Of a DNA stretch of 27,206 nucleotides, positions 3,389 through 26,345 are shown in pieces. Made by a program: the position numbers and the translations under genes. Origin of the DNA: a virus. Where the stretch lies: positions 1 through 27,206 of the IMG/VR virus record IMGVR_UViG_3300030328_001283. One strand, 5' to 3'. Position 1 is the stretch's first letter, and the number at the start of each line of letters is the position of its first letter. The notes under the pieces were generated by a model, which searched no databases, was not told the DNA's origin, and worked only from the letters and a program-made list of their open reading frames with translations.

Positions 3389-3415
3389 TATAACGATTAA
3401 AATAAGTCAATTTGT
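3389..3415 (-). promoter_or_regulatory. Putative phage promoter, CAAA box plus TCGTTATA
   Basis: On the minus strand ACAAA (3415-3411) is followed by ATCGTTATA, whose octamer TCGTTATA is at 3396-3389. Six bases separate it from the ATG at 3382. The two elements span 22 nt from the A of ACAAA to the G of TCG, exactly as at 7590-7611 and 5708-5729. It lies just downstream of the terminator at 3421-3447. The promoter role is inferred. Confidence 0.5.
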
Positions 3416-3416
3416 A

Positions 3417-3447
3417 AAATAAAAAAGCACCCTGAAAAGAGTGCTTT
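3417..3447 (-). terminator. Intrinsic terminator after the tail-tube-like gene
   Basis: On the minus strand AAAGCACTC and GGGTGCTTT pair across a TTTTCA loop (9 bp with one wobble pair), followed by TTTATTTT. It lies about 42 nt after the stop codon at 3490. The U-rich tail touches the upstream box of the promoter for the next gene, so termination and re-initiation are compressed into about 60 bp. Confidence 0.8.
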
Positions 3448-3489
3448 ATTATACTAATATTAAGAGTTTATTAGTGCTGAGATAGCAGA

Positions 3490-4014
3490 TTAGTTTACAT
3501 CTATTTGTGTACCCTGTGATTCTGCATTGTATGCTGCTGTTGTAACAAAGTCAGGTGCTTCTGTTTCTTGTGAAACAAATGTTAAAGAGTACCCAAAAAG
3601 GTCTCCCATAGCTGCACCATTACTAAATGTTCCAGTAGTTAGCTCACATCCGTGATCTTTACCTACTAATCTAAAATTACCATTATAATCTTCTACTATA
3701 ATGTGAGGTCTTGATACTGCAAGTAATTTAATCTCAGCTTGTGTTTTTTCTTCTTGGAAGATTAGGTTCATTACAACTGTTGTTTCGTAAAAAGTCGTTC
3801 CATTTTCTCTACTACTTGTTACAGTAGTATCTAAAGTTGATGTACCTTTTACATCAAACTTCATAAATGTAGGACTTCCACCAAAATCAGTTACCATTTC
3901 ATTCGCAATAGTTAAAGCACCTAAAGTACCATAATCAGCAAATGTAATAGATTTAATTCCACCTACCCCTGATTTACAAGGTAACTCTCTCCCTTTTGTT
4001 AATGTACAAGCCAT
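3490..4014 (-). CDS. Probable major tail tube (or other abundant virion) protein
   Basis: The 174-residue protein is rich in Thr, Gly and Phe and looks all-beta, with no membrane or signal segment. It starts MACTLTKGRELPCKSGVGG and near residues 115-150 has GKDHGCELTTGTFSNG, then AMGDLFGYSLTFVSQE, a strand-turn-strand pattern I associate with Bacteroidota-phage tail tube-like proteins. Strong terminators lie on both sides (4036-4062 and 3417-3447), as expected for a highly expressed monocistron set apart from the capsid gene. No TCGTTATA site is found in its upstream gap, so it probably depends on read-through from the capsid transcript. A head-decoration protein is the main alternative. The placement next to the capsid gene, far from the tape measure, makes the tail tube call tentative. 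Confidence 0.5.
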   Translation of the reverse strand: MACTLTKGRELPCKSGVGGIKSITFADYGTLGALTIANEMVTDFGGSPTFMKFDVKGTSTLDTTVTSSRENGTTFYETTVVMNLIFQEEKTQAEIKLLAVSRPHIIVEDYNGNFRLVGKDHGCELTTGTFSNGAAMGDLFGYSLTFVSQETEAPDFVTTAAYNAESQGTQIDVN

Positions 4015-4035
4015 ATTATTATATTTTAAAAGGTT

Positions 4036-4066
4036 AAAAAAAAGGTAGAGTAAAACCCTACCCCTT
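4036..4066 (-). terminator. Intrinsic terminator after the major capsid gene
   Basis: On the minus strand GGTAG and CTACC pair (4062-4058 with 4048-4044) around a GGTTTTACT-like loop that can extend the stem, followed by eight U residues (4043-4036). It lies 13 nt past the capsid stop codon. It probably terminates partly, letting a fraction of transcripts reach the next gene. Confidence 0.8.
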
Positions 4067-4078
4067 TTTATAAATTAT

Positions 4079-5005
4079 TTATACTGTTGGATCGTAAAGT
4101 ACAATTTCGCTTCCGATTCCATACTGAACACCTGCTGTGTATCTAGCCACAAATCTTACATTTTGAGAACCATCTAAGTCTGCCATATCTAAAACTTTTA
4201 CAAGATTTAAATCATTTAATAGACCTGTTCCAAAATATAAATTAGATTTTTGTGCTAACATCATTTGGTTGTCAGAAAGACCATTAGCCATAAAGATATT
4301 GACACCATCAAATGAAAGACCCTGTCCTGAGTACCACATTTGACCTTTATCATCAATACCATTAGCACCAACGCCAATAGAATAACCACCTAAAGCTCTA
4401 ACATACGCTTTCGCTACATTTTTAGAAACATATAGGTTTAAATCTTCTTTACCATAGATTGTATTAGGACAAGCATCTACTACTTTGCCCATTTCTGCAA
4501 TAACATTTGCGTGAGTTACAGTAGTTCCTGTAATGTCAGAAACATCTGAATCTGCTTTTGCTAGTGTAACTAGACCATCATATTCTCCTGCACTTGCATT
4601 TGCACCTACCCAAATATTTGTTTCGTTTTTAGCTGCTATTTCTGCTGAAATATGACCGATAAAAAAGTCTGAAAATTTAGGTGGCATATTTTCAAATGCT
4701 GAATAACCCATTTGAGCTGCTTCCCAGTCAGACACAAAAGGAGTTTTACATAATTCTAAGTTTACTTGAAATTCCTCAGGTTGTATAATTCTCTCAGTAA
4801 GAGTTACATTTCCTGCATCAGTAAAATCACAACTAGTATTTGCGATTAGTCCACTTGTAGCTACCTTTTTGATAACTTCTTTGTATTTAATATTAGGTTT
4901 AACTTCAATACCACCTTGTTCGATAGTGTTTGAAGAAAGGAGAGCTGCTGCGATATATTTTCCTGCAAATTCCCCTGCATAAGTTGATGTAATTGATAAC
5001 GCCAT
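4079..5005 (-). CDS. Major capsid protein
   Basis: The 308-residue protein forms the icosahedral head shell and probably has the HK97 fold. The sequence shows a mixed alpha/beta soluble protein with an N-terminal helical region, a middle section with GHISAEIAAKNETNIWVG near residues 117-134, an A-domain-like part with YVSKNVAKAYVRALGGYSIG around 192-211, and a beta-rich C-terminal end with VRFVARYTAGVQYGIGSEIV near 283-302. Its context is decisive: protease, scaffold, capsid, with a strong terminator directly after it. It lies 10 nt after the acidic scaffold gene and shares that gene's promoter. Less AT-skewed codons and many Ala/Gly residues fit high expression. No delta domain is seen at its N-terminus, consistent with the separate acidic gene acting as scaffold. 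Confidence 0.85.
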   Translation of the reverse strand: MALSITSTYAGEFAGKYIAAALLSSNTIEQGGIEVKPNIKYKEVIKKVATSGLIANTSCDFTDAGNVTLTERIIQPEEFQVNLELCKTPFVSDWEAAQMGYSAFENMPPKFSDFFIGHISAEIAAKNETNIWVGANASAGEYDGLVTLAKADSDVSDITGTTVTHANVIAEMGKVVDACPNTIYGKEDLNLYVSKNVAKAYVRALGGYSIGVGANGIDDKGQMWYSGQGLSFDGVNIFMANGLSDNQMMLAQKSNLYFGTGLLNDLNLVKVLDMADLDGSQNVRFVARYTAGVQYGIGSEIVLYDPTV

Positions 5006-5015
5006 TTTTTAAAAT

Positions 5016-5693
5016 TTATTTATTATTTATTTTACTTAAAACTCTATCTAAAGTTGATAGTTTTCTTCTTTGTGAAAAATGAAATTTATCTTTTTTAACT
5101 ACTGCTTCAGGACTATGTTTAATAGGTTCAGTAGCAGGTGCAGATAATTCTTCTTTCAATTCTTCTTTAACTTCTTCTTCTTCTGAAACTTTATCTTCAA
5201 CGACTTCTTCTTCGTTTACTTCGTTTTCAGAAAATTCTTCTTTTATAGTTCTTGACTTAGGTTGTCTAGGAGTAGCATCTTCTGCTTCTGCTTCGACTTC
5301 TTCTTTATCTTCGTATGATCTCATTTCTTCGACCACTTTTTCTAAATCAGAAACTCTGTCTTTTAATTCTTCATAGAATTTATACAAGTCCTCTTTTTCT
5401 TCTTCGGACTTTTCTTCTGCTTCCACTTCCTCTTTTTCAGGTGCTTCATCAGAAACTTCTCTAACATCAGCAATTACACCTTCTTCTTCAACAACGACTA
5501 ACTCGCCTGATTCTAAGATGTATTCGCCAACTGGCATAGCAACCTTTTCATCTTCTGTTACGATAAAGATTTCTTGCCCTTTTTCAAATGATTCTGCTTC
5601 TACAACAGTACCATTTTCTAACTTTCTTTCTTCAAGTTCTACTTGAATATTCAAAAGTGTACGAATTTTGTTTACCATTTCACTACTTTTCAT
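5016..5693 (-). CDS. Acidic scaffold-like capsid assembly protein
   Basis: This 225-residue protein has two parts. Residues 1-80 look beta-rich and compact, with LENGTVVEAESFEKGQEIF and MPVGEYILESGELVVVEE. Residues 80-200 are extremely rich in Glu with scattered Val and Ser and probably form a coiled coil (YKFYEELKDRVSDLEKVVEE). The end is basic (HFSQRRKLSTLDRVL). A highly charged helical protein directly before the capsid gene is the classic profile of a scaffold that binds capsid subunits through its C-terminus and is removed by the protease. It has its own promoter candidate at 5703-5729. Its exact stoichiometry and cleavage sites cannot be read from sequence. A decoration role for the N-terminal domain is possible. 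Confidence 0.65.
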   Translation of the reverse strand: MKSSEMVNKIRTLLNIQVELEERKLENGTVVEAESFEKGQEIFIVTEDEKVAMPVGEYILESGELVVVEEEGVIADVREVSDEAPEKEEVEAEEKSEEEKEDLYKFYEELKDRVSDLEKVVEEMRSYEDKEEVEAEAEDATPRQPKSRTIKEEFSENEVNEEEVVEDKVSEEEEVKEELKEELSAPATEPIKHSPEAVVKKDKFHFSQRRKLSTLDRVLSKINNK

Positions 5694-5702
5694 AATTACT
5701 TA

Positions 5703-5729
5703 TTTAACGATTTATAAATTTAATTTTGC
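5703..5729 (-). promoter_or_regulatory. Putative phage promoter before the scaffold-capsid genes
   Basis: The minus strand shows GCAAAA (5729-5724) and then ATCGTTAAA, a one-base variant of TCGTTATA, at 5710-5703. Nine bases remain before the ATG at 5693. The spacing between the two elements is identical to that at 3389-3415 and 7585-7611. It would drive scaffold and capsid independently of the protease transcript. Function is inferred. Confidence 0.45.
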
Positions 5730-5733
5730 ATTT

Positions 5734-5889
5734 TTAACTTGCAACTCTGCTTATTACTCCTATGCCTTGAGCCCATATAGAGCCATCACAGCACTCCCTA
5801 GAGTATGTATCTTTATCTTTACATAGACAAGCTCTAGTGCTTCCTTTAGGACTTGTTCTACTTGGTATATATGTTTCTTTAGAATGCAC
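5734..5889 (-). CDS. Cysteine-rich mini-protein, 51 aa, GTG start
   Basis: The only in-frame start is GTG at 5889, because a TAG stop lies directly before it. The ORF overlaps the last 11 nt of the upstream gene. The product carries four cysteines in a tight cluster, ACLCKDKDTYSRECCDG at residues 20-36, followed by SIWAQGIG. The Cys-x-Cys...Cys-Cys spacing suggests zinc or iron binding or disulfides. I recognise the pattern from small ORFs next to capsid genes in Bacteroidota phages, without a known function. It sits between the duplicated scaffold-module genes and the scaffold gene, so a minor head protein or assembly factor is plausible. It is too short for routine gene callers and uses a rare start. 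Confidence 0.6.
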   Translation of the reverse strand: MHSKETYIPSRTSPKGSTRACLCKDKDTYSRECCDGSIWAQGIGVISRVAS

Positions 5890-6268
5890 CTAATAAAGCA
5901 TTTATAGATTTAACAATTTGCCCATCAGAGTTTTGTAAAGAACTCCTATAAGCATCTATTTGGTTAATAGCAACTTTTGCATCACTAGGTACATCTACAC
6001 CCAATTCTTTTGTTGCTTTTATTATTTCATCAGACATCTTTTCAGATTTTTGTACATCTTTTAAAACTTCTTTTATTTTACTACGAATTTTACCATCTAA
6101 TGTACTAATTACTTTATTTATATCTGATTCAACAGAATCTCCTGATTTTTTAATTTTATCATATAGCTTTACTAGATCACTTACTTTTGCTAATTCTACT
6201 TTCTCTAACTCTACCTTATCTTTAGGGAGTTTGTTTAATACTTTGTTTATGTTATGTTTATTAATCAT
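5879..6268 (-). CDS. Stand-alone scaffold-module paralog 1 (129 aa)
   Basis: The predicted protein is almost entirely helical and Lys/Glu/Val-rich, without Cys or Trp. Its first 21 residues are nearly the same as those of the neighbouring 125-residue protein: MINK.NINKVL.KLPKDKVEL. Both have an ATKELGVD or AAKELGVD motif starting at residue 85. The same two motifs occur in the C-terminal part of the XkdF-like protease just upstream, at about the same distance. The gene therefore looks like a duplicated copy of the protease's scaffold tail that gained its own start codon. A role in capsid assembly is inferred from location and helical composition. It follows the other copy by 8 nt in one transcription unit. 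Confidence 0.7.
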   Translation of the reverse strand: MINKHNINKVLNKLPKDKVELEKVELAKVSDLVKLYDKIKKSGDSVESDINKVISTLDGKIRSKIKEVLKDVQKSEKMSDEIIKATKELGVDVPSDAKVAINQIDAYRSSLQNSDGQIVKSINALLGAF

Positions 6269-6276
6269 AATTTTTA

Positions 6277-6654
6277 TTATTTTATTTTTGCTAACGCCTG
6301 TATTATTCTTTCTACTATTGCTAAATTTTCATCTGTATCTTTAACTACAACCCTATAAGGTTTCATAAACATACTAGCATCAACACCTAATTCTTTTGCA
6401 GCTTTTACATCTTTATTAGCTTGATCTTCTGCTTTTTTCTGTATTTGTGATGATTCTACGCTTAAACGACTAGCTTTTGTTTTAATAGCCAGTAATTCCT
6501 TTCTTTTAGAAACAAACTCACTTACTACTTCTTCTATTTTTTTTCTAACTGTAAAAGCATCTTCTTGATATTTTTTATAATCATCTAAAGCTAATTCTAC
6601 TTTATCTTTAGGTAATTTTTTTAATACTTTATTAATGTTGGTCTTGTTTATCAT
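6277..6654 (-). CDS. Stand-alone scaffold-module paralog 2 (125 aa)
   Basis: The protein is helical, starts MINKTNINKVLKKLPKDKVE and has VELALDD near residue 19 and AAKELGVD at 85-92. Both motifs are shared with the C-terminal part of the XkdF-like protease (VELALIDDL at 202, ATKELGID at 266) and with the neighbouring 129-residue protein. The middle section is a candidate coiled coil (SEFVSKRKELLAIKTK). The gene starts 1 nt after the protease stop codon and shares the protease promoter. Most likely it is an auxiliary scaffold or minor capsid protein that arose by tandem duplication. No enzyme motif is seen. Confidence 0.7.
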   Translation of the reverse strand: MINKTNINKVLKKLPKDKVELALDDYKKYQEDAFTVRKKIEEVVSEFVSKRKELLAIKTKASRLSVESSQIQKKAEDQANKDVKAAKELGVDASMFMKPYRVVVKDTDENLAIVERIIQALAKIK

Positions 6655-6655
6655 T

Positions 6656-7579
6656 TTATTTACTTGATTTTATTATTTTTCTTCCTATAGATGCTCTATT
6701 ATTAATTGCTGTAGTATGTTTTTGTATTTTTTTGGTTAATTCTGCTACCTTTGGAGGTAGGTCTATACCTAATTCTTTAGTAGCTTCCTTTATTTGTTTT
6801 CCTATTTTTAAATAAGATTCAAATTCAGCAAAACCTGAATTACTAAGGTTACCTAAGGATCTAGTTTTGTTTTCTATTTCTGAAACCAAACTATCGAATA
6901 ATTTTTTACTCTCTTTATCATATTTCTCTGCTTTAGAAACATAGACCTCTAAATCATCTATTAAAGCTAATTCTACTCTTTCTCCTTTTACAATACTTGT
7001 AATCTGACTAAGTAATAAATCTGCTTTTTCTTCTTCACTAAGTCCAGTAGTATTATCTTGTGGTCTTTCCATTTTATCTGCAAAGTACCCCTCTATTGAG
7101 AATCCTTTTACTTTACCTGTTTTAACATACTCATTCCACACATCATCATTGTTTACTTTGACAGCACCCATCCAAGTACCTACTGGTACATCTAAACCAT
7201 ACTTTCTTGACTTGTCAAATTTAGTATCTTCTACTATCCAACTTTCTACTAGAGTAAGTCCACTTAATTCATGCTTATGTTCTAGTGTTGAATTATTTTG
7301 ATTACCATTTTTAAGGTATAATTGTGATGCTTTCTCTACTGTGTCCTTAGAAAAATAAATATAATATTCATCTTTTCCTGCTTTTCTGTAAATAGGTTTA
7401 TTTGGAATAAGTAATGCACCCATTAATATCTTTTTTTCTTTATTAACTTCTGCAAGTTTTATCTCATCAGACTTTAATGCTAAAAAATTTTCTTCTATTG
7501 CAGGGTTTTCTACTATTGAGATTGCTTCAATGCCCATCATACTTTGAGCTTCATCTAAAATAAGTTCTACGATTCTCAT
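6656..7579 (-). CDS. XkdF-like prohead protease fused to a scaffold-like C-terminal module
   Basis: Residues 45-170 match the XkdF-type phage serine protease pattern: a beta-strand GALLIPNKPIYR, a long YFSKDTVEKASQLYL helix, a conserved His in LEHKHELSG (H101), VESWIVEDTK, then VGTWMGAVKV and the Ser-containing GFSIEGYF (S161). In this family the His and Ser are thought to be catalytic and the enzyme processes head proteins during maturation. Residues 200-307 form a helical, charged tail with VELALIDDL and ATKELGIDLPP, which resembles an internal scaffold that would be released by cleavage. The gene has its own promoter candidate 5 nt before the ATG and heads the head-gene cluster. The fused tail explains why two small paralogs lie directly after it. 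Confidence 0.75.
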   Translation of the reverse strand: MRIVELILDEAQSMMGIEAISIVENPAIEENFLALKSDEIKLAEVNKEKKILMGALLIPNKPIYRKAGKDEYYIYFSKDTVEKASQLYLKNGNQNNSTLEHKHELSGLTLVESWIVEDTKFDKSRKYGLDVPVGTWMGAVKVNNDDVWNEYVKTGKVKGFSIEGYFADKMERPQDNTTGLSEEEKADLLLSQITSIVKGERVELALIDDLEVYVSKAEKYDKESKKLFDSLVSEIENKTRSLGNLSNSGFAEFESYLKIGKQIKEATKELGIDLPPKVAELTKKIQKHTTAINNRASIGRKIIKSSK

Positions 7580-7584
7580 ATTTT

Positions 7585-7611
7585 TATAACGATTTTTAAG
7601 TTAAATTTTGT
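7585..7611 (-). promoter_or_regulatory. Putative phage promoter at the head-gene cluster
   Basis: The minus strand has ACAAAA (7611-7606) followed by AAATCGTTATA, with the octamer TCGTTATA at 7592-7585. Only 5 nt separate it from the ATG at 7579, so the transcript would be nearly leaderless. The ACAAA-to-TCG span of 22 nt is the same as at two other sites. It lies between the tape-measure stop and the protease start. Confidence 0.5.
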
Positions 7612-7613
7612 AT

Positions 7614-15485: not shown

Positions 15486-16136
15486 CTAACTTAGTGATAT
15501 TTTCAAATCTTTCAACACGCCCTTGAGAGAGTGCATATATTGATTGAAACCATCCATATTTTCTTGAAAAGTTAGAAACGCTGTCAAGTCCCCCTTGTTC
15601 TCCTTTTCCAAATAACTCGCCATAGTCTTTGACAAGTCTCTCCCTAAACGAAACAAAAAAAAAATTGAGCCCATAACAGCAGACATTGGCATTTCTAATA
15701 GCTCATTTTTTCTGTCTAGGTCATAATCTTCAATTAAATATTTGTCTTGTATTCTATCTTTTACTGGTCTGTATAGCACATTCATAGCAAGGTGCATGTT
15801 ATCCCAGTTAGATATATGGGTGTCTAAGTCAATATATTCTCCAAAACTTATATTATTAAGATCAGGAATAAAACCAAACTCTTTGCTTTCTAAATAAAAG
15901 CTGTGCATAAGAGGTGGTTTCTTCTCAAACATATCATTAATAATTTTAGCTACTCTTTCTGCATCTGACATTTTCATTTGTCTTACAGCTTGTGCATCTA
16001 AATTGCAAAAAATCTCTATCATTTTGCATTGTACAAAATATGGATCATCATTTTGCTCTTGTAATTTGTGAAACTTTTGATATTGACCTAAAGTGATTTC
16101 GCTTAAATCATTAGGAACACTTAACTTCTTTTTCAT
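15486..16136 (-). CDS. Conserved tail-cluster protein, 216 aa (possible tail assembly chaperone)
   Basis: The product is helical and begins MKKKLSVPNDLSEITLGQYQ. A central conserved-looking stretch reads FIPDLNNISFGEYIDLDTH at about residues 90-108. Helices with SNWDNMHLAMNVLYRP and AVMGSIFFLFRLGRDLSKT follow. There is no signal peptide; the one hydrophobic stretch is short and probably a buried helix. Proteins with this profile are common between terminase and tail genes in Bacteroidota phages, and the size fits a tail assembly chaperone, but no frameshift pair is seen. It has its own octamer promoter 5 nt before the ATG and a strong terminator upstream. Confidence 0.5.
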   Translation of the reverse strand: MKKKLSVPNDLSEITLGQYQKFHKLQEQNDDPYFVQCKMIEIFCNLDAQAVRQMKMSDAERVAKIINDMFEKKPPLMHSFYLESKEFGFIPDLNNISFGEYIDLDTHISNWDNMHLAMNVLYRPVKDRIQDKYLIEDYDLDRKNELLEMPMSAVMGSIFFLFRLGRDLSKTMASYLEKENKGDLTAFLTFQENMDGFNQYMHSLKGVLKDLKISLS

Positions 16137-16141: not shown

Positions 16142-16149
16142 TATAACGA
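16142..16149 (-). promoter_or_regulatory. Octamer TCGTTATA before the tail cluster
   Basis: The minus strand carries AATTAAATTCGTTATA, with the octamer at 16149-16142, and 5 nt remain before the ATG at 16136. A CAAA box at the usual distance is not visible, though AAATCG lies upstream. It is located directly downstream of the terminator hairpin at 16175-16231. It likely restarts transcription for the tail genes. Confidence 0.45.
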
Positions 16150-16174
16150 ATTTAATTTACGATTTTTAATAAAT

Positions 16175-16684: not shown

Positions 16685-16832
16685 ATTCTATTTTGTCTAG
16701 TCCTGTTATGTTACTCCAATAGGTTGTGGCATAAGTTACAAAATTGTCTATATGCCTTTGCCCATCAAATTCTTTTGTTACTGTTGTTATTCTTCCAGTA
16801 TTAGTTGTAAAATGTATTGTTGCTTTTATCAT
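16671..16832 (-). CDS. Hypothetical protein, 53 aa
   Basis: It starts at an ATGA junction with the ORF before it and ends 14 nt into the small membrane-protein ORF. The sequence MIKATIHFTTNTGRITTVTK is followed by EFDGQRHIDNFVTYATTYW, which predicts a beta-beta-alpha unit. The codon use and the chained overlaps support that it is translated. No family recognised. Confidence 0.6.
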   Translation of the reverse strand: MIKATIHFTTNTGRITTVTKEFDGQRHIDNFVTYATTYWSNITGLDKIEYEKS

Positions 16833-16993
16833 AATATTGTAAAATGTTTTGCACCTCTACGAGCTTTTTGTTTTGCCTTTAGTAATGCTTGTTTTGGACT
16901 TATAGCTTCTACCTCTACTATATCGTAGTCATACCCACTATCTTCATCTCCTATAAAAGATAAAAACCAATATTCTATTTTATATACTTTCAT
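16829..16993 (-). CDS. Hypothetical protein, 54 aa, with octamer-like site upstream
   Basis: The product is MKVYKIEYWFLSFIGDEDS, then GYDYDIVEVEAISPKQALL and a basic end KAKQKARRGAKHFTIL. The pattern of a strand, acidic loop, strand and helix (EVEAISPKQALLKAKQKA) suggests a small alpha/beta domain. A GTGTTATA site, a variant of TCGTTATA, lies 7 nt upstream (17001-17008). It follows the terminase large subunit and starts a chain of three small overlapping ORFs. Confidence 0.65.
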   Translation of the reverse strand: MKVYKIEYWFLSFIGDEDSGYDYDIVEVEAISPKQALLKAKQKARRGAKHFTIL

Positions 16994-17000
16994 ACTGCAA

Positions 17001-17008
17001 TATAACAC
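17001..17008 (-). promoter_or_regulatory. Variant octamer GTGTTATA
   Basis: The minus strand reads AAATAAGTGTTATATTGCAGT before the ATG at 16993. The site matches TCGTTATA except for TC replaced by GT, with a 7-nt gap to the start codon. It could drive the chain of three small ORFs. It is the weakest member of the set. Confidence 0.3.
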
Positions 17009-18252: not shown

Positions 18253-18521
18253 TTAAAGTTTATCAGGTCTTTAAAATTGATATTAAAACCCTCACTAGAA
18301 TTAATATCTACCGATTCTTTTGGTTTACCATATCTATATCCAAAGTACAAACTCATAGCCCTGTCTGACCCCTCTTTAATCTTTTTACCTAATGTTTTTA
18401 TAACCTCATCATTGTCAATAAGATTATCTAACTTTTCTATTAACCTTTCCTCATCTGCTTTTTTTGGTCTCCCTGCAAATCCTTTTGTAGAGTGTCCACC
18501 ATTATTTTTTCTTTTATCCAT
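18249..18521 (-). CDS. terS: Terminase small subunit-like DNA-binding protein
   Basis: The 90-residue product is basic at the N-terminus (NGGHSTKGFAGRPKKADEER, with an AT-hook-like GRPKK) and continues with helices (LIEKLDNLIDNDEVIKTL) and an RAMSLYFGYRYGKPKE segment typical of short TerS-like proteins. It is directly upstream of terL, with ATGA overlap. It probably recognises packaging sites and assembles into a ring. It has a TCGTTATA site 28 nt before its start, which begins the late region. The short length (most TerS proteins are longer) makes the specific family uncertain, but context is strong. Confidence 0.75.
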   Translation of the reverse strand: MDKRKNNGGHSTKGFAGRPKKADEERLIEKLDNLIDNDEVIKTLGKKIKEGSDRAMSLYFGYRYGKPKESVDINSSEGFNINFKDLINFK

Positions 18522-18549
18522 TATTAATAAAATATTAATTAATTAATTA

Positions 18550-18557
18550 TATAACGA
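18550..18557 (-). promoter_or_regulatory. Octamer TCGTTATA at the start of the late region
   Basis: The minus strand has a run of eight T and then CGTTATATAATTAATTAATT. The octamer covers 18557-18550, 28 nt before the TerS ATG, the longest gap in the set. It lies between the methyltransferase stop and the terminase genes and so could separate early from late transcription. Confidence 0.45.
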
Positions 18558-18572
18558 AAAAAAATTATTGTT

Positions 18573-19229
18573 TTAAAATAACTCTTTTTGATCTGTTTTA
18601 AATTCTACCATTTTACCCATAGCAGTATCTAGTATTGTTTTACCTGCAACATAATCTACTAAATTATTTGCAATTTTTCTTGTGGGTTGTTTTCCTTTAT
18701 ATTTAGTAAAATCGTAATCGTGAAATTCACTCATAACTTTTATCACATTCTTTACTCTTGTAAAGTCAGGATTTTTTCTGTCGCTTATTATATGTGGTAA
18801 TTTAAAGTTACACCAATATAAATGTCTGTTTCTTTTTTGTGCAGGTATTAAAGGTTCATAATATGGTATTACATTCTCTACTACATACTTCCCATTAAAA
18901 AAATTATCTAAAAAAATTATTTCCTCGTACAACCTCATATCAGGGTATCTTAATTTCCATTTACTATTGTCTGTTTGTCTTTTACCTTTAAATGTAAAAT
19001 TCATTCTACTATGTGTAGGACAAGGTGGAGAACTCCAAATAAAATTGTATTCTTTGTAATGGTCTAACAAGTATTGGTGTGCATCTGCAACAACAACATT
19101 GTCTTTAGGAAACCTCTCTTTGTATAATTTTGCTAATTCTTCATCCCACTCTACAGCTGTAATTTCGTGTTCATCTCCCCACTTATATCTATTACCACCT
19201 AAACAAGCATATAAATTAAGTATTTTCAT
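18573..19229 (-). CDS. DNA (cytosine-5)-methyltransferase-like protein, compact
   Basis: Residues 6-12 (LYACLGG) form motif I for AdoMet binding, and residues 66-74 (SSPPCPTHS) form motif IV with the catalytic Cys70 after Pro-Pro. VVENV at 116-120 is the ENV motif VI, and QKRNRHLYW at 131-139 matches motif VIII. At 218 residues it is far smaller than typical C5 methyltransferases, leaving only about 75 residues for target recognition. It can either methylate cytosine with low specificity or make a hydroxymethyl-type change, but no extra domain is seen. It overlaps the upstream DUF5664-like gene by ATGA and ends the replication-modification cluster. Protection from host restriction is the usual role. 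Confidence 0.85.
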   Translation of the reverse strand: MKILNLYACLGGNRYKWGDEHEITAVEWDEELAKLYKERFPKDNVVVADAHQYLLDHYKEYNFIWSSPPCPTHSRMNFTFKGKRQTDNSKWKLRYPDMRLYEEIIFLDNFFNGKYVVENVIPYYEPLIPAQKRNRHLYWCNFKLPHIISDRKNPDFTRVKNVIKVMSEFHDYDFTKYKGKQPTRKIANNLVDYVAGKTILDTAMGKMVEFKTDQKELF

Positions 19230-19606
19230 TTTGTATAACTTCCAAATTGTTCATCATATCCTATTTGGTCTTTAGGTTCTCTATTTCTATTGTATTGATC
19301 TTTATACCATTTCTCATCTCTTTTGTTCTCTAACTCTTTTTCTAGGTTTGCTAATGCTCTCCACGCTACCTTTGCTGAGTGAAGCTGACCATCAGTATCA
19401 ACTTTACCTGCTTCAAATAAGTGTCTTGTTAGTGCATCTAATTCATCTGTGCTTTTTTCTCTATCCCAATGTAAAGGTTTGTCAGGATGATGCTGTTGAT
19501 TTCCTACATACGATACTTTAGCAACCTCAGCTAGTGCCTTAGGGAAATATTTAATTAGTCCTGTATATATAGGTATTTGTTTTCTTTTGTTTTTGTCTGT
19601 TTCCAT
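19226..19606 (-). CDS. dATP/dGTP diphosphohydrolase-like protein (DUF5664 type)
   Basis: The 126-residue protein has the signature run of this family at residues 15-65: TGLIKYFPKALAEVA, then SYVGNQQHHPDKPLHWDRE, then KSTDELDALTRHLFEAG. The acidic residues in EVAK and DELDAL probably hold metal ions as in MazG-like all-alpha NTP pyrophosphohydrolases. Related proteins act on purine dNTPs in phages with modified or 2-aminoadenine DNA, but most members are uncharacterised. It sits between the adenine methyltransferase (immediately adjacent) and the cytosine methyltransferase (ATGA overlap), so a link to nucleotide pool control or DNA modification is reasonable. No PurZ-like gene is visible in the window. 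Confidence 0.75.
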   Translation of the reverse strand: METDKNKRKQIPIYTGLIKYFPKALAEVAKVSYVGNQQHHPDKPLHWDREKSTDELDALTRHLFEAGKVDTDGQLHSAKVAWRALANLEKELENKRDEKWYKDQYNRNREPKDQIGYDEQFGSYTK

Positions 19607-20323
19607 TTAAAATATTTGTAATTGTTCTGTATGTTGATTTAATCTTAATTTTGCTTTTTCATAATACTCTTTATCAATTTCATACCCTGCAAGATTGTAT
19701 TTTAAATTATGACAAGCAATAGCTATTGAGCCACTTCCTAAATGTGTATCTAATATTTTATCTCCCTCTTTTGCATAATTCATAAGCAACCACTCGTATA
19801 ATTTTACTGGTTTTTGTGTAGGATGTATTCTTTTTTCTAACCCTCTACCATAATCATTAATCATTTTTGTGTTCATTGTTCCTGCTTGAACATTACCACT
19901 CCATTGAAAATCAAACATAGTAATTCTATTTTGACAATTTGTAGCTGCTATATCAGCGTGAGAATAAGTGCTTTTTAAAAAAGGTGTTACTAACTTATTA
20001 TGTATTATTCTACCTTGCCCAAATAACTTTTGTGCTTCTCCATAATAATTACATCCCCAAATAATGTGCTTTTTAGAAACTCTTAGCACTTCATTAAAAT
20101 AATCTATTGTAGGTGGTACTTTATTCCAGTCCTTTTGTTTATGCCCTTTTATAACATAATTTTTTTGTTCTCCTGTACTTAATTTGCCTTTTGTTTTAAT
20201 TCTTTTTCCTTTGCTAAAACTTAAACCTATGCCATAAGGAGGATCTACGATAGCTAAGTCAAATTGATTATCTGACATTTCTTTCATAGCTTCTACACAG
20301 TCTTGGTTATATAGGTTTATCAT
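19607..20323 (-). CDS. Adenine-specific DNA methyltransferase (beta class)
   Basis: I choose the ATG at 20323, which overlaps the upstream stop in an ATGA junction; an ORF extended to 20347 would add eight residues. Motif IV, VDPPYG, lies at residues 26-31 and precedes the target-recognition part, while the AdoMet-binding motif DTHLGSGS comes near the C-terminus after HPTQKP. This order (IV before I) marks the beta class of N6-adenine or N4-cytosine methyltransferases; DPPY favours adenine. The 238-residue length is usual for phage solitary enzymes. No restriction enzyme gene is near, so it likely protects phage DNA or marks it. Confidence 0.9.
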   Translation of the reverse strand: MINLYNQDCVEAMKEMSDNQFDLAIVDPPYGIGLSFSKGKRIKTKGKLSTGEQKNYVIKGHKQKDWNKVPPTIDYFNEVLRVSKKHIIWGCNYYGEAQKLFGQGRIIHNKLVTPFLKSTYSHADIAATNCQNRITMFDFQWSGNVQAGTMNTKMINDYGRGLEKRIHPTQKPVKLYEWLLMNYAKEGDKILDTHLGSGSIAIACHNLKYNLAGYEIDKEYYEKAKLRLNQHTEQLQIF

Positions 20324-20787
20324 AAAACTTTTTCTTTCCACTCCCAACTCTTGACTACTCTCTCAATGCTTTCTATTTTGTCTCTATCGTTTGGAACTTC
20401 TATTACTAATTTTACTAATGGGTTTTCTAGTTTTTTTTGTAATGTGCTGCACTTGTTTTCTAAGTAGTGTATTCTGTCTATCTCATCTACACCTAAATTG
20501 CTTCTAAAAGAAAACATGTTGTATATCTCTTGTATTTGTTTATTGTGTTTTTTATACATTTCAAAGTTCTTTACGCTGTGTATAAGTGTAGCGTGATTTA
20601 CTGGCTTATTATTTGATTTTAAGAATAGTGCTATGTTTACCCATCTCATGCCAAGTTTTTCTCTTAGTATGTGTATAAGTAGTGATCTCATTTCTATTAT
20701 GTTTCTCTTTCTACTATCTTCAAATATATTTATGCCTGATAGTTCTATTATTTTGTTTGCTATTTCTAAAGGTTTTAAATTATTCAT
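20320..20787 (-). CDS. DnaA domain IV-like DNA-binding protein, 155 aa
   Basis: Residues 26-90 read as a helix-turn-helix of the type in the C-terminal domain of the replication initiator DnaA: KRNIIEMRSLLIHILREKLG, then RWVNIALFLKSNNKPVNHAT and LIHSVKNFEMYKKHNKQIQ. NHATLIHSVK is close to the DHATVLHAV-type signature that contacts the DnaA box. No ATPase domain precedes it; instead a C-terminal coiled coil with IHYLENKCSTLQKKLENPL follows. It lies between the FEN exonuclease (8-nt overlap) and the methyltransferase. It may bind DnaA-box-like sites to start phage replication or to interfere with host initiation. Confidence 0.7.
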   Translation of the reverse strand: MNNLKPLEIANKIIELSGINIFEDSRKRNIIEMRSLLIHILREKLGMRWVNIALFLKSNNKPVNHATLIHSVKNFEMYKKHNKQIQEIYNMFSFRSNLGVDEIDRIHYLENKCSTLQKKLENPLVKLVIEVPNDRDKIESIERVVKSWEWKEKVL

Positions 20788-21747: not shown

Positions 21748-21763
21748 AATTTTTTATTTGCAA

Positions 21764-21771
21764 TATAACGA
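21764..21771 (-). promoter_or_regulatory. Octamer TCGTTATA before the exonuclease unit
   Basis: The minus strand reads AACATAAATTTAATAATTTTCGTTATATTG, with the octamer at 21771-21764, 16 nt before the ATG at 21747. AAC lies about 17 nt upstream of the CGTT core, compatible with an ECF-type -35. It falls in the gap after the PD-(D/E)XK gene. Confidence 0.5.
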
Positions 21772-21788
21772 AAATTATTAAATTTATG

Positions 21789-22202: not shown

Positions 22203-22404
22203 TTTCCCAAATTTTATTCAAATCAGCTATCCATTGATTTATCTGTTTTGGGTTACAGGTGCAAGGGTTTGATAAGTTATGTTTATAGTAGGTTCTGTGC
22301 AGGTCGCATACCATTTCAAATTCTTTTCTTGAAATGACTGATTTTTTTGCCATCCTAAATTTTTTCCATTTTTGTCTGTCATCTTTATTAAATTTAGTTA
22401 CCAT
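22192..22404 (-). CDS. Small Cys-containing protein, 70 aa
   Basis: Basic start (FNKDDRQKWKKFRMAKKSV) followed by FEMVCDLHRTYYKHNLSNP and CTCNPKQINQWIADLNKIW. The C...H...CxC arrangement could bind zinc. The C-terminal NPKQINQWIADLN helix is one I recall from Bacteroidota-phage small genes next to nuclease genes, without function. It overlaps the ORF before it by 7 nt and the next by 11 nt. Confidence 0.65.
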   Translation of the reverse strand: MVTKFNKDDRQKWKKFRMAKKSVISRKEFEMVCDLHRTYYKHNLSNPCTCNPKQINQWIADLNKIWENGN

Positions 22405-22556
22405 CTTTTTATTTTAATATTGTTTAATGATTCTTTTCTCTCATCACATCCACAACTTTCTTTACCTCTTTTATGTGCTATCCATGTAGCTATTCTTTTA
22501 CCTTGTCCTAATGTGATTATGTTTATTACTTTTTCTATTATGTTTCCTAGTTTCAT
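22398..22556 (-). CDS. Small protein with CxC, 52 aa
   Basis: The ATG at 22556 forms an ATGA overlap with the nuclease gene before it, and the stop overlaps the start of the next ORF by 7 nt. The sequence MKLGNIIEKVINIITLGQG continues as KRIATWIAHKRGKESCGCD and ends in a Lys/Arg-rich tail. The GKESCGCDERKE end recurs in Bacteroidota-phage small proteins in my experience. An amphipathic N-terminal helix followed by a Cys pair could sit on the membrane inner face or bind metal. Confidence 0.6.
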   Translation of the reverse strand: MKLGNIIEKVINIITLGQGKRIATWIAHKRGKESCGCDERKESLNNIKIKRW

Positions 22557-22978
22557 ATTTCTTTATATTTATATAGTAATTCTTTTTTAATAAGATATGC
22601 TTTTTTTTGTTTAGTATCTCCTCTACCTATAAACTTTTTATATGTTAAATTGTTTTCTGTTATACATTTTTTTATGTTGTTTACCATAAACCAATTATAT
22701 TGTAAGCCATCATATATTACCCACCACAATGCTTTTGTTGTACTTAGTGCTGAGGGTTTATTATCAAATTCTATTTCTATTACTATATTTCCTGTGTGCA
22801 TACTTTTTTTGTCTGACTTTACCTCTACTCCTATTTCTAATTCAGGTATGTATATATCCCAGTCTTTACAATATCCTTTTTGTATATATGCTTTTGGGTA
22901 TTTTTCTTGTATTTTTTCTAATACAATGTTTTCATATATTTTTCCTACTTTTAAATCAGATTGAAAAACATCATTCAT
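22553..22978 (-). CDS. PD-(D/E)XK endonuclease-like protein, 141 aa
   Basis: The protein starts with a helix containing GKIYENIVLEKIQEKYP (Glu16), then Asp39/Asp41 in KDWDIYIPELEIG and the EVK motif in GVEVKSDKK (Glu52, Lys54). This is the usual E...D...ExK pattern of archaeal-type Holliday-junction resolvases and related nucleases. SMHTGNIVIEIEFDNKPS and ALWWVIYDGLQYNWFMV follow as central strands. It may resolve branched intermediates before packaging. It overlaps the sigma-like gene before it by ATGA. Confidence 0.7.
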   Translation of the reverse strand: MNDVFQSDLKVGKIYENIVLEKIQEKYPKAYIQKGYCKDWDIYIPELEIGVEVKSDKKSMHTGNIVIEIEFDNKPSALSTTKALWWVIYDGLQYNWFMVNNIKKCITENNLTYKKFIGRGDTKQKKAYLIKKELLYKYKEI

Positions 22979-23454
22979 AATAATTTTTTTAACTTTTCTT
23001 TAACTTTGTTGTATGTGTTATATAGTGAGTAGTATGGTATTCCTGTTTTTCGTGATAATGATGCTACGCTTTCATCTTCTTGGTTTAACATCAAGAAAAC
23101 TTTTTTATCATACCAGTACATATTGTCTAATGCTTCTAATATTATTTTATACTTTCCCTCATAGTCAATGTCTGTCTGTGTTGCTCTTAACTTTTCTGTA
23201 CCTACTCTTTTTATATTTTTTCCCTTTCTCTTTAGATCAATAAACATTGTTCTTAATGTTAAGTAGATATAATAATAATTTATTTCGTGCTCTTTATAGC
23301 TTATGTCTAAACCCTTTTCTAGTTTAAGTTGTATTTTAATATACATTTCTTGGACTAAATCACGAGATGTCTCATAGTCTAAACCAAACGATCTACAAAT
23401 TTCTATCCAGTCATTATTCTTTGCGAACAACAACTTCATACTTTTTTCTATCAT
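22975..23454 (-). CDS. ECF-like RNA polymerase sigma factor
   Basis: The 159-residue protein has the two domains of a minimal sigma-70 factor. Residues 26-42 (DYETSRDLVQEMYIKIQ) match region 2.1/2.2, and 60-77 (YYYIYLTLRTMFIDLKR) match 2.3/2.4. A linker follows, then a C-terminal helix-turn-helix at 128-155 (ESVASLSRKTGIPYYSLYN). This architecture is that of ECF (group 4) factors, though divergent. It could redirect host polymerase to phage promoters; the recurrent TCGTTATA sites are the obvious candidates. It lies between the RecA-like gene and the resolvase-like gene. Confidence 0.75.
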   Translation of the reverse strand: MIEKSMKLLFAKNNDWIEICRSFGLDYETSRDLVQEMYIKIQLKLEKGLDISYKEHEINYYYIYLTLRTMFIDLKRKGKNIKRVGTEKLRATQTDIDYEGKYKIILEALDNMYWYDKKVFLMLNQEDESVASLSRKTGIPYYSLYNTYNKVKEKLKKLL

Positions 23455-23462
23455 AACTACTC

Positions 23463-24281
23463 TTAGTCAAGAGGATCATATAAATCCCCAACTATTATTG
23501 GTAGTCCTAGCTCATTTATTTCAAAGCTAAAAGTATCAAAAGCGTAACCTCTGCTTCTTTTACACTTAACTGTAATTCGTTCTTTGTGTACGCTGTTCTT
23601 TTCAAGTTGTATTTGTGTTTCTGTTTTCTTTTCTAGGAAACTTCCTAAATGTCCTGTTGGTTTCTCTGAGCCAAAATTACTATGTATTACTAATATAATA
23701 TGTATATTGTAAACTTCACTCCATTCCATTATTTTCTGTACAACATCATTTGCTTCTTGTATATTATTCACATCATTACATAAATCTGCTACCCCATCAA
23801 TAATACAGCATCCTATGTTTTCTTTTGTCTTTAGACAATGCTCTATAAATTCTACTCTTGTTTTTGGCATAAGTGTTCTCAAACTATAAGTATGATAGCA
23901 CCCTTGTTCATTGTATTTATTCATTGATAGAACTCTTTTAAAAACTCTACCACAATGCCAAGACCCTTGTTCTGTATCAAAGTGTAACAGGCATCTTCCA
24001 TTTCTATGACCTTTAATGTTTCCACCAAAAGTATTACCCCCTGACAAATATACACTTGCCAACAAAGATATAAAAAAAGTCTTTTTGCTTTTTGGACTAC
24101 TTTGGATAAATGAAAAAGACCCATAAGTGCCGAGTGGTATAGGCAATAGTTGATCTCCTGTGCTAGATTTTATTAGCTTTTCTCCCATTGAGATTGCTAC
24201 TGGTGGGTATGAAAGTTCTTTGTTTGTGTCTATGAAACAGCTTTTCTCTATCTGCTTCATTAAGTCTTGGTGGTTTGTCAT
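23463..24281 (-). CDS. RecA/DnaB-fold ATPase (RepA-like helicase or recombination ATPase)
   Basis: The 272-residue protein contains a P-loop-like segment SSPKSKKTFF at residues 61-70, where the expected G-x-x-x-x-G-K is degenerate and Ser and Lys replace the first Gly and Gly-Lys pair. The Walker B strand CCIIDGVADL is at 158-167, and HIILVIHSNFG near 193-203 fits motif H3/H4 of hexameric helicases. A C-terminal strand-rich part with QIQLEKNSVHKERITVKCKR follows. The pattern resembles AAA_25/RepA-like ATPases that serve as replication helicases in small phages. It is in its own position after the terminator at 24293-24330. The atypical Walker A needs attention. Confidence 0.75.
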   Translation of the reverse strand: MTNHQDLMKQIEKSCFIDTNKELSYPPVAISMGEKLIKSSTGDQLLPIPLGTYGSFSFIQSSPKSKKTFFISLLASVYLSGGNTFGGNIKGHRNGRCLLHFDTEQGSWHCGRVFKRVLSMNKYNEQGCYHTYSLRTLMPKTRVEFIEHCLKTKENIGCCIIDGVADLCNDVNNIQEANDVVQKIMEWSEVYNIHIILVIHSNFGSEKPTGHLGSFLEKKTETQIQLEKNSVHKERITVKCKRSRGYAFDTFSFEINELGLPIIVGDLYDPLD

Positions 24282-24292
24282 GTGTCTAAGAT

Positions 24293-24330
24293 AAAAAAAA
24301 AGAGGATAAGATACTAAGCCCTTACCCTCT
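24293..24330 (-). terminator. Intrinsic terminator after the SSB-like gene
   Basis: On the minus strand AGAGGGTAAG and CTTATCCTCT form a 10-bp stem with one G-U pair around a GGCTTAGTAT loop, followed by eight U. It lies 28 nt after the SSB-like stop codon and 12 nt before the RecA-like start. Confidence 0.9.
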
Positions 24331-24357
24331 TATTCAAAAAATTAAAAAACAATTCTC

Positions 24358-24672
24358 TTAAAATGGTAAATCTTCTTTCTTGTAGGCATCTTCTGTACCT
24401 GCAATTATGTGATCTTTGTTTTCTTGCTTTTCTGCAAGTTGAACATTACCATCAGTCCATATTACTTTTCCATTACCTAATGTATGTTTTTTCTTTTTAG
24501 CTTCTCTCTCCTCTTTACTTTGAGAATCGTAAAGCCATACATTATTTCCAAACCTAGTTTGGTCATTTACAGATATTGTAAAGTTATAGTAAACTGCACC
24601 ATCTTTGCCTTTTACAAATTTTTCTTTTGGTAGTCTATCTACCCTGATACTCGTACTTATTAATAAACTCAT
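24358..24672 (-). CDS. Single-stranded DNA-binding-like protein, 104 aa
   Basis: The sequence shows an OB-fold-like start, ISTSIRVDRLPKEKFVKGKD, then YYNFTISVNDQTRFGNNVWL and NVQLAEKQENKDH, and ends with an acidic tail EDAYKKEDLPF. The D-L-P-F tip matches the SSB C-terminus that recruits partner proteins. It is adjacent to the ERF-like annealing protein (10 nt gap), a usual pairing in recombination modules. A terminator follows. It is shorter than cellular SSB. Confidence 0.8.
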   Translation of the reverse strand: MSLLISTSIRVDRLPKEKFVKGKDGAVYYNFTISVNDQTRFGNNVWLYDSQSKEEREAKKKKHTLGNGKVIWTDGNVQLAEKQENKDHIIAGTEDAYKKEDLPF

Positions 24673-24682
24673 AATATAATTT

Positions 24683-25216
24683 TTAAATTAATGATTCTAA
24701 TTCTGTTTTCTGTTCTTGTGTTACTGTATATTTTTCTTCTACATAACTCATAGATTTACCTGCCTTTAAAACTTTTATAACATCAAACCAGTCTTTAGTA
24801 CCTTTAGTAATTTTAGGTTTGTTATTATGGTTGTGTGTGGCATCTGCATCCTGTGTGTCATCTATCAGAAATAAATTACCAAGTGCATATTTTTTTCCAT
24901 AGCTACTTGCAGTTCCAAACTTCTGTGGCATTTGCATACCCTTTTGGTCTAGCTCTACACCTACTATTGCACTTGCTTTCATTCTCATCAAACCATCAGT
25001 TATTAATGCTGTTGATTTAATGGTATGACTATCAATAAGTTTTTCACTTATTCTTACTGTTAGTCCTAGTGGTATTAGAAAAGGTTTTATAGCTTCAAGT
25101 ATATCTTCTGCCGACCTATAATAATACCTGCCAAATTTATTAAACTTGGTTTTTTTTGCTTTTAATTCTGTTTGAATCTTAGCAATTTTATCGTTAAATG
25201 ATTGTTCTTTTTTCAT
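24683..25216 (-). CDS. ERF-family single-strand annealing protein
   Basis: The 177-residue product shows the ERF signature: an N-terminal helix (FNDKIAKIQTELKAKKTKF), the KFGRYYYRSAEDILEAIKP block at 27-45, strands with GLTVRISEKL and ALITDGLMRMKASAIV, and the conserved QKFGTASSYGKKYALGNLF at 98-116 with the acidic DDTQDAD following. ERF proteins anneal complementary single strands and circularise or recombine phage DNA. It starts 23 nt inside the end of a small coiled-coil ORF and is followed by the SSB-like gene. Confidence 0.9.
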   Translation of the reverse strand: MKKEQSFNDKIAKIQTELKAKKTKFNKFGRYYYRSAEDILEAIKPFLIPLGLTVRISEKLIDSHTIKSTALITDGLMRMKASAIVGVELDQKGMQMPQKFGTASSYGKKYALGNLFLIDDTQDADATHNHNNKPKITKGTKDWFDVIKVLKAGKSMSYVEEKYTVTQEQKTELESLI

Positions 25217-25385
25217 CTATTAATTTTTCAATTTGTATTTGCTTAAATTCTAACTCTTGTTTTAAGATGTTAGTTTTCTCTTTTTCTTTACCTAGAGCTT
25301 TTTCTAATGCTTCAACTCTATGATGTAAATATTCGACCATTAAACTACTATAATTATGCTTCTCCATACTTTCTATGGTATTCAT
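25194..25385 (-). CDS. Small coiled-coil protein, 63 aa
   Basis: The product is MNTIESMEKHNYSSLMVEY followed by a long helix LHHRVEALEKALGKEKEKT and IQIEKLIDEKRTII, a clear coiled-coil candidate. A second ATG at 25367 would shorten the overlap with the previous gene from 32 to 14 nt and may be the true start. It overlaps the ERF gene by 23 nt. Function unknown. Confidence 0.65.
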   Translation of the reverse strand: MNTIESMEKHNYSSLMVEYLHHRVEALEKALGKEKEKTNILKQELEFKQIQIEKLIDEKRTII

Positions 25386-25548
25386 CTTTTAAGTCCTCTA
25401 ATGCTCTATTTCTAATATCTAAAGCTCTAATATGTCTATTTCTTTCTTCTGTGTGATATTTAATATCCCATTCACAAGATTCAATAGTTTTTTCTAGCTC
25501 TATTTGATCTTTAGTTTTAAGTTCTTCAACTATAATTTGTTCTGTCAT
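25354..25548 (-). CDS. Small helical protein, 64 aa
   Basis: The sequence MTEQIIVEELKTKDQIELEK continues with TIESCEWDIKYHTEERNRH and ends RALEDLKDEYHRKYGEA. It is one long helical unit with Glu/Lys heptads. It is the first gene after the terminator region 25617-25649, although no octamer is seen upstream. It may bind the next coiled-coil protein. Function unknown. Confidence 0.65.
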   Translation of the reverse strand: MTEQIIVEELKTKDQIELEKTIESCEWDIKYHTEERNRHIRALDIRNRALEDLKDEYHRKYGEA

Positions 25549-25608
25549 AAATAAATTTTAAATTAAACTTAATGGCAAGTTATTAAAAAAATATTTAATA
25601 AACTAATT

Positions 25609-25665
25609 CCAAAGACAAAAAAAAAGGATTAACCTAAATTAACCCCCTTTTCCCCAAAGACAAAA
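25609..25665. repeat. 12-bp direct repeat flanking a terminator
   Basis: CCAAAGACAAAA occurs at 25609-25620 and again at 25654-25665, in the same orientation, 33 bp apart, with the terminator stem between. A similar repeat elsewhere was not seen. It may be a regulatory site or slippage remnant. Confidence 0.5.
25617..25649 (-). terminator. Intrinsic terminator after the NinG-like gene
   Basis: On the minus strand AAGGGGGTTAA and TTAATCCTT can pair with two unpaired G residues around a TTTAGG loop, followed by nine U (25625-25617). It lies 40 nt after the NinG-like stop. Confidence 0.75.
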
Positions 25666-25688
25666 TGAACAGAACTAATCAAAATTAA

Positions 25689-26090
25689 TTATTTATCCAT
25701 TAAATCTACAAATTCTTTATATCTATTTATCAACGAAATTAGATCCTCATTTGATAACTTAACTGTCTTTTTACTTTCTAATAGTAATTCCTCTGCTATA
25801 TCGTAACCATATTCCTTATTAAGATTTAAGGCAAACTGGTATTGTTTTCCTTGAGACATAACATTACAACCATAACATTGAGGTCTTGCATTTTTTTCTG
25901 ACCATCTTAATACATAATGTCTCCTGCTTATAAAATGACCACATTGCATGTAATCTTTGTAGTGTTTTTTTACTCCACAAGTATAGCACTTTACAATACC
26001 TTTTTTATCTGCTGATTTTAGTCTTATATATTGACTAAATAATATATCTAACTTTTTGATTAATGATTTTCTACTAACCTTTCTAGGCAT
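25689..26090 (-). CDS. NinG/Rap-like recombination protein
   Basis: The protein has the NinG zinc-binding layout: CYTCG at 35-39, CGHFISRRHYVLRW at 50-63 and CYGCN at 72-76, with a basic N-terminus (MPRKVSRKSLIKKLD) and a C-terminal YQFALNLNKEYGYD helix. In lambda the Rap/NinG protein is a structure-specific nuclease that acts on branched recombination intermediates. The His and Cys spacing also recalls HNH-type zinc fingers. It overlaps the upstream 80-residue gene by 8 nt, a usual position in the early recombination region. Confidence 0.85.
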   Translation of the reverse strand: MPRKVSRKSLIKKLDILFSQYIRLKSADKKGIVKCYTCGVKKHYKDYMQCGHFISRRHYVLRWSEKNARPQCYGCNVMSQGKQYQFALNLNKEYGYDIAEELLLESKKTVKLSNEDLISLINRYKEFVDLMDK

Positions 26091-26325
26091 CTTTATCTTG
26101 TGCTTGTAAGAATTTATTACCTACTTCTTGATTGATCTTAGATATAGCTCTATATATATATCTACTATTTTTTCTAATATTGTTTTTTTGAGATTTAGAT
26201 ATATTTATACCTATATTATTAGCTATATAATTAGATTCAATTTCTAGTAATCTATCTATTTTTTTCTTTTTAGATACTGATTTATACTGTACAATTTTGT
26301 CTATAATGTCTGTATTAAAACTCAT
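26083..26325 (-). CDS. Hypothetical protein, 80 aa, first gene of the early region
   Basis: The sequence starts MSFNTDIIDKIVQYKSVSKK and continues with KKIDRLLEIESNYIANNIG and IRKNSRYIYRAISKINQEV, a helical and highly basic product. The pattern is familiar to me from Bacteroidota phages, always near NinG, without a known role. It follows a promoter region with an octamer 12 nt upstream and a host-like -7 box 179 nt upstream, so it probably is expressed first. A DNA-binding regulator is possible. Confidence 0.65.
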   Translation of the reverse strand: MSFNTDIIDKIVQYKSVSKKKKIDRLLEIESNYIANNIGINISKSQKNNIRKNSRYIYRAISKINQEVGNKFLQAQDKDA

Positions 26326-26337
26326 ATTGTTTATAAA

Positions 26338-26345
26338 TATAACGA
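26338..26345 (-). promoter_or_regulatory. Octamer TCGTTATA before the early region
   Basis: The minus strand has TTGTTAATTAATCGTTATATTTATAAACAATATG, with the octamer at 26345-26338 and 12 nt to the ATG at 26325. An AAAT stretch lies at the CAAA position but no clear box. It would act in addition to the host-like promoter further upstream. Confidence 0.45.

Follow-up and report, generated by a model that had tools for sequence, protein, structure and literature searches.

Control of late genes by a phage-encoded sigma factor is known from other phages and is apparently undescribed in phages of Bacteroidetes. The gp36 sigma of phage phiEco32 acts at middle and late promoters formed by a single element, tAATGTAtA, with transcription starting 6-8 bp downstream, and this single-element form has been linked to the absence of region 4 homology in gp36 (PMC8948821). 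In Salmonella phage 7-11, the sigma SaPh711_gp47 directs late operons through the bipartite promoter GTAAtg-16-aCTA, with starts 6-9 bp from the element (PMC8948821). The stretch of DNA analysed here, called the window, is IMG/VR virus record IMGVR_UViG_3300030328_001283 in its full length of 27,206 bases. It carries a recurrent octamer, TCGTTATA on the coding strand, which is very probably the -10 element of a phage-specific late promoter of the extracytoplasmic function (ECF) type, probably read by the phage's own sigma factor, for which a gene encoding a 159-aa protein is proposed.

The system resembles that of phage 7-11 in combining a small phage-encoded sigma (here proposed), host RNA polymerase, late operons and a bipartite promoter. 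It differs in motif, host phylum and phage type, and the promoters and sigma of 7-11 have been experimentally tested (PMC8948821). Leaderless late mRNAs are predicted for the window, while the 7-11 paper never uses the word leaderless (PMC8948821). Common to phiEco32 and the window are a sigma encoded by the phage (proposed for the window) and a short conserved element in front of phage genes, which in phiEco32 are middle and late genes; unlike gp36, the window protein includes a domain like region 4, and a -35-like block is part of the window promoters. An ECF-style CGT -10 element sets the window system apart from both. A CGT -10 element is also found in the SM6 promoters of Flavobacterium psychrophilum, but these serve a cellular ECF regulon that covers type IX secretion and other cellular genes (PMC9723704). 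As in phiEco32 and 7-11, late operons are preceded by a conserved element and the phage has a probable sigma gene of its own, and the sigmas of these two phages are the closest precedent, a comparison that claims likeness and makes no claim of descent.

Among named phages, the nearest to the window are the Nonlabens (Persicivirga) phages P12024L and P12024S (Inhavirus), with 55.7% identity in TerL, so a Flavobacteriaceae host is likely for the window phage. They also encode a sigma, in a gene located just upstream of the terminase gene. Their sigma is only about 25% identical to that of the window, and their promoters have a CGTTAATA-type -10 element with ACAAA as the upstream block. On the coding strand the two genomes have six and five CGTTA-type sites, and their record has no promoter annotation. 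Open-access literature gave no match to the motif strings and no sigma-driven late promoters in Bacteroidetes phages.

The window has 29-33% G+C and practically all of its genes lie on the minus strand. PHROGs matches include portal, terminase large subunit, tape-measure-like, maturation-protease-like, Erf-like, NinG-like, methyltransferase and holin genes, and from these matches the window is a tailed phage. A megablast of the window against named phages and an Rfam search found no match. Viral contigs supplied relatives of the TerL, portal and sigma proteins, and 33 genomes were analysed in full: the window, the two P12024 phages and 30 uncultured relatives.

The octamer in the window and in related phages

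Six exact octamers, always placed 5-28 nt before a start codon and never inside a gene or on the other strand, had been listed by an earlier note on this DNA, and an exact search of the window bears this out. On the plus strand the octamer reads TATAACGA and occurs solely at 3389, 7585, 16142, 18550, 21764 and 26338, at 6, 5, 5, 28, 16 and 12 nt from the ATG, respectively; all six copies are on the coding strand and in gaps. The same note held that such placement is not random. Gaps make up 6.8% of the octamer positions (0.068^6 = 1e-7), TCGTTATA ranks first among all octamers in the window gaps, and Markov models of order 1-3 expect 0.12-0.76 coding-strand copies. With one mismatch allowed, 39 copies are found against 28.7 by chance, a slight excess; this count being near chance, the signal is the exact, gap-placed, one-strand set.

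The near absence of a one-mismatch excess over shuffles is what could be said for a chance or compositional artefact of AT-rich gaps. That explanation has a negligible probability and is already refuted by conservation at orthologous operons. In the 33 genomes, gaps close before starts contain 166 copies of the pattern CGTTAWW, compared with an average of 8 across 1,260 permuted patterns, among which it ranks first; antisense occurrences in gaps number 19. A scan of 2.9 million viral contigs for a strict promoter pattern, the 17-base form CAAAAT, 13 nt, CGTTATAT, 4 nt, ATG, gave at least 120 stretches, and among the matches listed, all 86 that were read precede an open reading frame.

Lack of conservation before the same genes of related phages had been named in advance as the outcome that would speak against a phage-specific promoter element. 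Instead, CGTTA-type sites precede the orthologs of the genes starting at 16136, 7579, 5693 and 3382 in 28 to 31 of the 33 genomes (Table). The note's proposal of such an element is thereby supported; the -35-like block, the fixed initiator and the candidate sigma gene described below go beyond it. For the gene starting at 18521, which lies just upstream of TerL and is small-terminase-like by its position, automatic assignment gives at least 12 genomes, and more such sites are present in upstream sequences read directly. Two gap variants had also been proposed. The one at 5703, TCGTTAAA, is real and has a perfect upstream block, while the one at 17001, GTGTTATA, is rejected as a promoter site, having neither the CGT core nor an upstream block. 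The reading frame at 16829-17008 has an in-frame ATG at 16991-16993 (MKVYKIEYWF) that looks like the true start, and its listed GTG start is probably wrong.

Table. Promoter elements and the proposed sigma gene in the window (window coordinates)
Feature	Position	Strand	Remarks
-10-like octamer TCGTTATA	3389..3396	-	Portal operon promoter, gene start 3382; predicted +1 ~3383, 1-nt leader; site in 31/33 genomes
-35-like block CAAATT of 3382 promoter	3409..3414	-	Sequence reading at the established block position
-10-like variant TCGTTAAA	5703..5710	-	Promoter, gene start 5693; predicted +1 ~5697, 4-nt leader; CGTTA-type site in 30/33 genomes
-35-like block CAAAAT (in TGCAAAAT) of 5693 promoter	5723..5728	-	
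-10-like octamer TCGTTATA	7585..7592	-	Maturation-protease-like gene promoter, start 7579; predicted +1 = A of ATG (leaderless); 29/33 genomes
-35-like block CAAAAT of 7579 promoter	7605..7610	-	
-10-like octamer TCGTTATA	16142..16149	-	Tail operon promoter, gene start 16136; predicted +1 = A of ATG (leaderless); 28/33 genomes
-35-like block AAAAAT of 16136 promoter	16162..16167	-	
-10-like octamer TCGTTATA	18550..18557	-	Promoter, gene start 18521; predicted leader ~23 nt; at least 12 genomes
-35-like block TAAAAC of 18521 promoter	18570..18575	-	Sequence context
TCGTTATA	21764..21771	-	Before small open reading frame starting 21747; weakest of six; site before ortholog in genome G029
TCGTTATA	26338..26345	-	Before gene starting 26325, upstream of NinG/Rap-like nuclease gene; predicted leader ~7 nt; 5 genomes
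-35-like block TAAATT of 26325 promoter	26358..26363	-	
ECF-like sigma factor gene, 159 aa, proposed promoter reader	22975..23454	-	Profile, homologs, structure model
TAATTTTG, match to Bacteroidetes host -7 consensus TAnnTTTG	25680..25687	-	131 nt before early-type gene starting 25548; same element in G001, G002, G027

Architecture of the promoter: the loci of the relatives, P12024L/S and the window together hold 199 exact octamers, of which 94 lie in a gap at most 60 nt before a start, all 94 on the majority coding strand. Of 40 non-redundant TCGTTATA sites, 36 have AAA at positions -17 to -15 relative to the octamer, usually preceded by C or T, and the distance of this block to the octamer is constant (16/18 sites with the ATG at 5 nt, 20/22 at other distances). 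In the window the block is found at six of seven sites, the six exact octamers plus 5703, and a terminator hairpin (3447-3424) is located directly upstream of the 3389 site. Downstream of the octamer, T at position 12 followed by a purine at position 13 is found in 17 of the 22 sites with an ATG distance other than 5 nt, and 76 of the 78 family sites have a purine at position 13. A T/purine step at constant distance after the -10 element looks like a transcription start. The best explanation of these sequence features is a promoter of the form (C/T)AAAA(T), with TCGTTATA 13 nt after AAAA, then 5 nt and then a purine as the presumed +1.

Unsupervised expectation-maximization with T-runs masked found CGTTATATA first and the host-like TATATTTG further down; a de novo motif search without masking recovered solely terminator T-runs.

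Regulator sites, too, can lie close to +1, and the octamer could in principle be an operator for a phage activator or repressor overlapping an ordinary host promoter. This is quite improbable, as the octamer is non-palindromic and strictly oriented and keeps a constant spacing to its -35-like partner and to the initiator step. The host-type TAnnTTTG is absent from the six octamer sites, and TTGACA-17-TATAAT-like sites between 3300 and 22000 are at shuffle level (97 matches against 94.9).

The fixed spacing also bears on a reading of the octamer as part of the mRNA, where it would serve translation in place of the Shine-Dalgarno sequence. The octamer does stand exactly 5 nt before the ATG in many sites, yet across all sites this distance spans 3 to 39 nt, whereas the spacing of the -35-like block and of the initiator to the octamer is unchanged. 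Moreover, most genes of the same genomes lack the octamer, and initiation in flavobacteria is tuned by A at -3 and -6 and by mRNA structure (PMC6847099). A translation signal is thus very improbable.

A candidate sigma factor and its probable link to the promoter

The product of 22975-23454 is identified as an ECF-type sigma factor on the basis of profile searches and a structure model. Its match to the NCBIfam sigma70-ECF model TIGR02937 has E=2.3e-6. A profile of 29 homologs finds the ECF sigmas SigE and SigW in the PDB; 14 of these homologs match Sigma-70 region 2 (PF04542), which is also annotated for the P12024 homolog in its public record, and 27 match phrog_31712, whose function is listed as unknown. 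The AlphaFold2 model has two domains of four helices each (mean predicted local distance difference test, pLDDT, 87.8) joined by a low-confidence linker at residues 88-93, with an uncertain domain arrangement (predicted template modelling score, pTM, 0.47). As in group 4 sigmas, the model contains region 2 and region 4 helical domains with a short linker and lacks regions 1.1 and 3. Foldseek gives as its best PDB matches the ECF sigmas SigH, SigL, SigE, AlgU and E. coli sigmaE, mostly in transcription complexes; many of its viral matches are phage ECF sigmas, the Cronobacter phage GAP52 ECF sigma being among the weak ones.

A homolog of this gene is present in all 33 long related records (partial in one, G009), 21 of which were picked via TerL or portal and not via the sigma. 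Twenty-five records found by the promoter pattern alone were searched whole, and the sigma gene is carried by 12 of the 12 records of at least 20 kb. Promoters of one genome also vary together: of 294 within-genome pairs, 228 share the base before CGTTA, against a shuffled mean of 122 and maximum of 156, a statistic that is inflated by the relatedness of the genomes. The uncultured contig G008 has CGATATATA at all four late operons, and its sigma is the most divergent of the uncultured set, with the longest terminal branch (1.08). Concerted change of promoters within genomes is what a shared trans-acting reader predicts.

Such a reader could also be a host ECF sigma, the phage gene having some other role. 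Flavobacteria carry several ECF sigmas, and the CGT -10 box of the SM6 promoter class of F. psychrophilum (PMC9723704) fits this possibility. It is nevertheless unlikely, because the phage sigma gene occurs in every long related record and the promoter change is largest where the phage sigma is most divergent. In 257 Gb of cellular genomes, the strict pattern gives 56 matches, 45 inside reading frames and two at gene starts, one of these two being a gene of the window's phage family in an archaeal metagenome-assembled genome, and the strict pattern in cellular genomes is noise. A search of cellular genomes by conserved peptides of the sigma found no relative, and thus gave neither a prophage nor a named host.

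The archaeal case is the locus at 136001-144000 of CP070803.1 (L460), in a metagenome-assembled genome labelled Candidatus Woesearchaeota archaeon, which contains the phage-family gene together with its late promoter; this is phage DNA that was probably placed in the archaeal genome by binning or assembly.

Several points weigh against a phage sigma reading these promoters. The window protein scores 27.3 bits, below the TIGR02937 cut-off of 42.9, and has no Pfam match itself, so its identity as a sigma rests on the profile, the homologs and the model. None of the 13 pattern-found records under 19 kb, which are fragments, carries the sigma gene, and this limits the co-occurrence claim, although the absence may be a fragment effect. 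Since every related record has the sigma, there is no sigma-less relative to serve as a negative control. No single column of sigma region 2.4 residues cleanly tracks the T/A switch in the promoters. Finally, the 21764 site has no clear -35-like block, and the 26338 site precedes a recombination-type gene and not a virion gene.

The analysis itself shows the motif of two blocks with its fixed initiator, the conservation of this motif at the same operons, the fold of the sigma, the co-occurrence of sigma and promoter, and the joint change of promoters within genomes; to these the model we infer adds sigma binding, the +1 positions, early and late timing and leaderlessness. Host RNA polymerase with the host primary sigma would transcribe the early genes, which would include the 159-aa sigma gene. 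The phage sigma would join host core RNA polymerase, with region 2 reading CGTTATA and region 4 reading the AAAA block, and the late operons would switch on together; the promoter stands before the virion operons and a few other units. Early and late are assigned here provisionally, from gene content and by analogy with the phages named above. Host-type TAnnTTTG is found 127 times before starts compared with 70 for the reversed pattern; this enrichment is modest and the early-promoter side of the model is therefore weak. On the coding strand, TAnnTTTG occurs in or beside window gaps solely at 26504, 25680 and 234. The gap before the sigma operon (24282-24357) has neither the octamer nor TAnnTTTG, and contains a terminator-like hairpin.

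Predicted leaderless mRNAs and neighbouring features

Of 84 non-redundant sites, 39 have 5 nt between octamer and ATG. With +1 at position 13, transcription at such sites would start at the A of the ATG, and an ATG at 6 nt would leave a 1-nt leader. These ATGs look like true starts, because the families of the genes starting at 16136 and 3382 have no conserved downstream methionine. Several late mRNAs are accordingly placed, as a prediction from spacing, among leaderless or nearly leaderless messages.

Features of the remaining leaders: the leader of the operon before TerL (18522-18572 in the window; also G006, G009, G011, G014, G017, G026, G027 and G029) often holds TTGATTAATCAA or TTGAATAAACAA, which coincides with the predicted start or closely follows it; 10 of 20 long-leader sites have either form. 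TTGATTAATCAA, a perfect palindrome, may be an operator. The conserved early leader at 25549-25688 has TAATTTTGATTAGTTCTGTTCATTTT; in the window, a terminator-like hairpin lies between this sequence and the early operon. Its start is identical in G001, G002 and G027, with a variant in G021, and the leader possibly serves attenuation or antitermination.

Two other genes of the window are described here. The protein encoded at 19226-19606, between two methyltransferase-like genes, has a dATP/dGTP diphosphohydrolase N-terminal domain (PF18909, E=1.6e-11) and may point to nucleotide modification. The small protein of 20320-20787 has a DnaA C-terminal-like DNA-binding domain (NCBIfam DnaA model, E=8.8e-7; PF08299, E=7.8e-4, below the cut-off).

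In flavobacteria, leaderless mRNAs are just 5.5% of those mapped in F. psychrophilum (PMC9723704), 87% of the predicted leaders of F. johnsoniae are longer than 10 nt, and initiation is tuned by A at -3 and -6 and by mRNA structure (PMC6847099). The balance tips slightly towards the view that, in a widespread lineage of phages of marine Bacteroidetes, an ECF-type sigma of the phage's own governs the late programme and most virion operons give leaderless mRNAs. If this is true, late phage translation would differ in kind from most host translation, as leaderless mRNAs are rare in Bacteroidetes hosts, and the predicted late mRNAs offer a clear test of phage translation in bacteria that do not use the Shine-Dalgarno sequence. 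A function is proposed for phrog_31712, a family that PHROGs lists as unknown, and a probable late regulon is defined for an abundant uncultured lineage of marine phages. The promoter pattern may be used to recognise this lineage in metagenomes, and the lineage provides dozens of naturally co-varying sigma and promoter pairs with which sigma residues could be matched to promoter bases.

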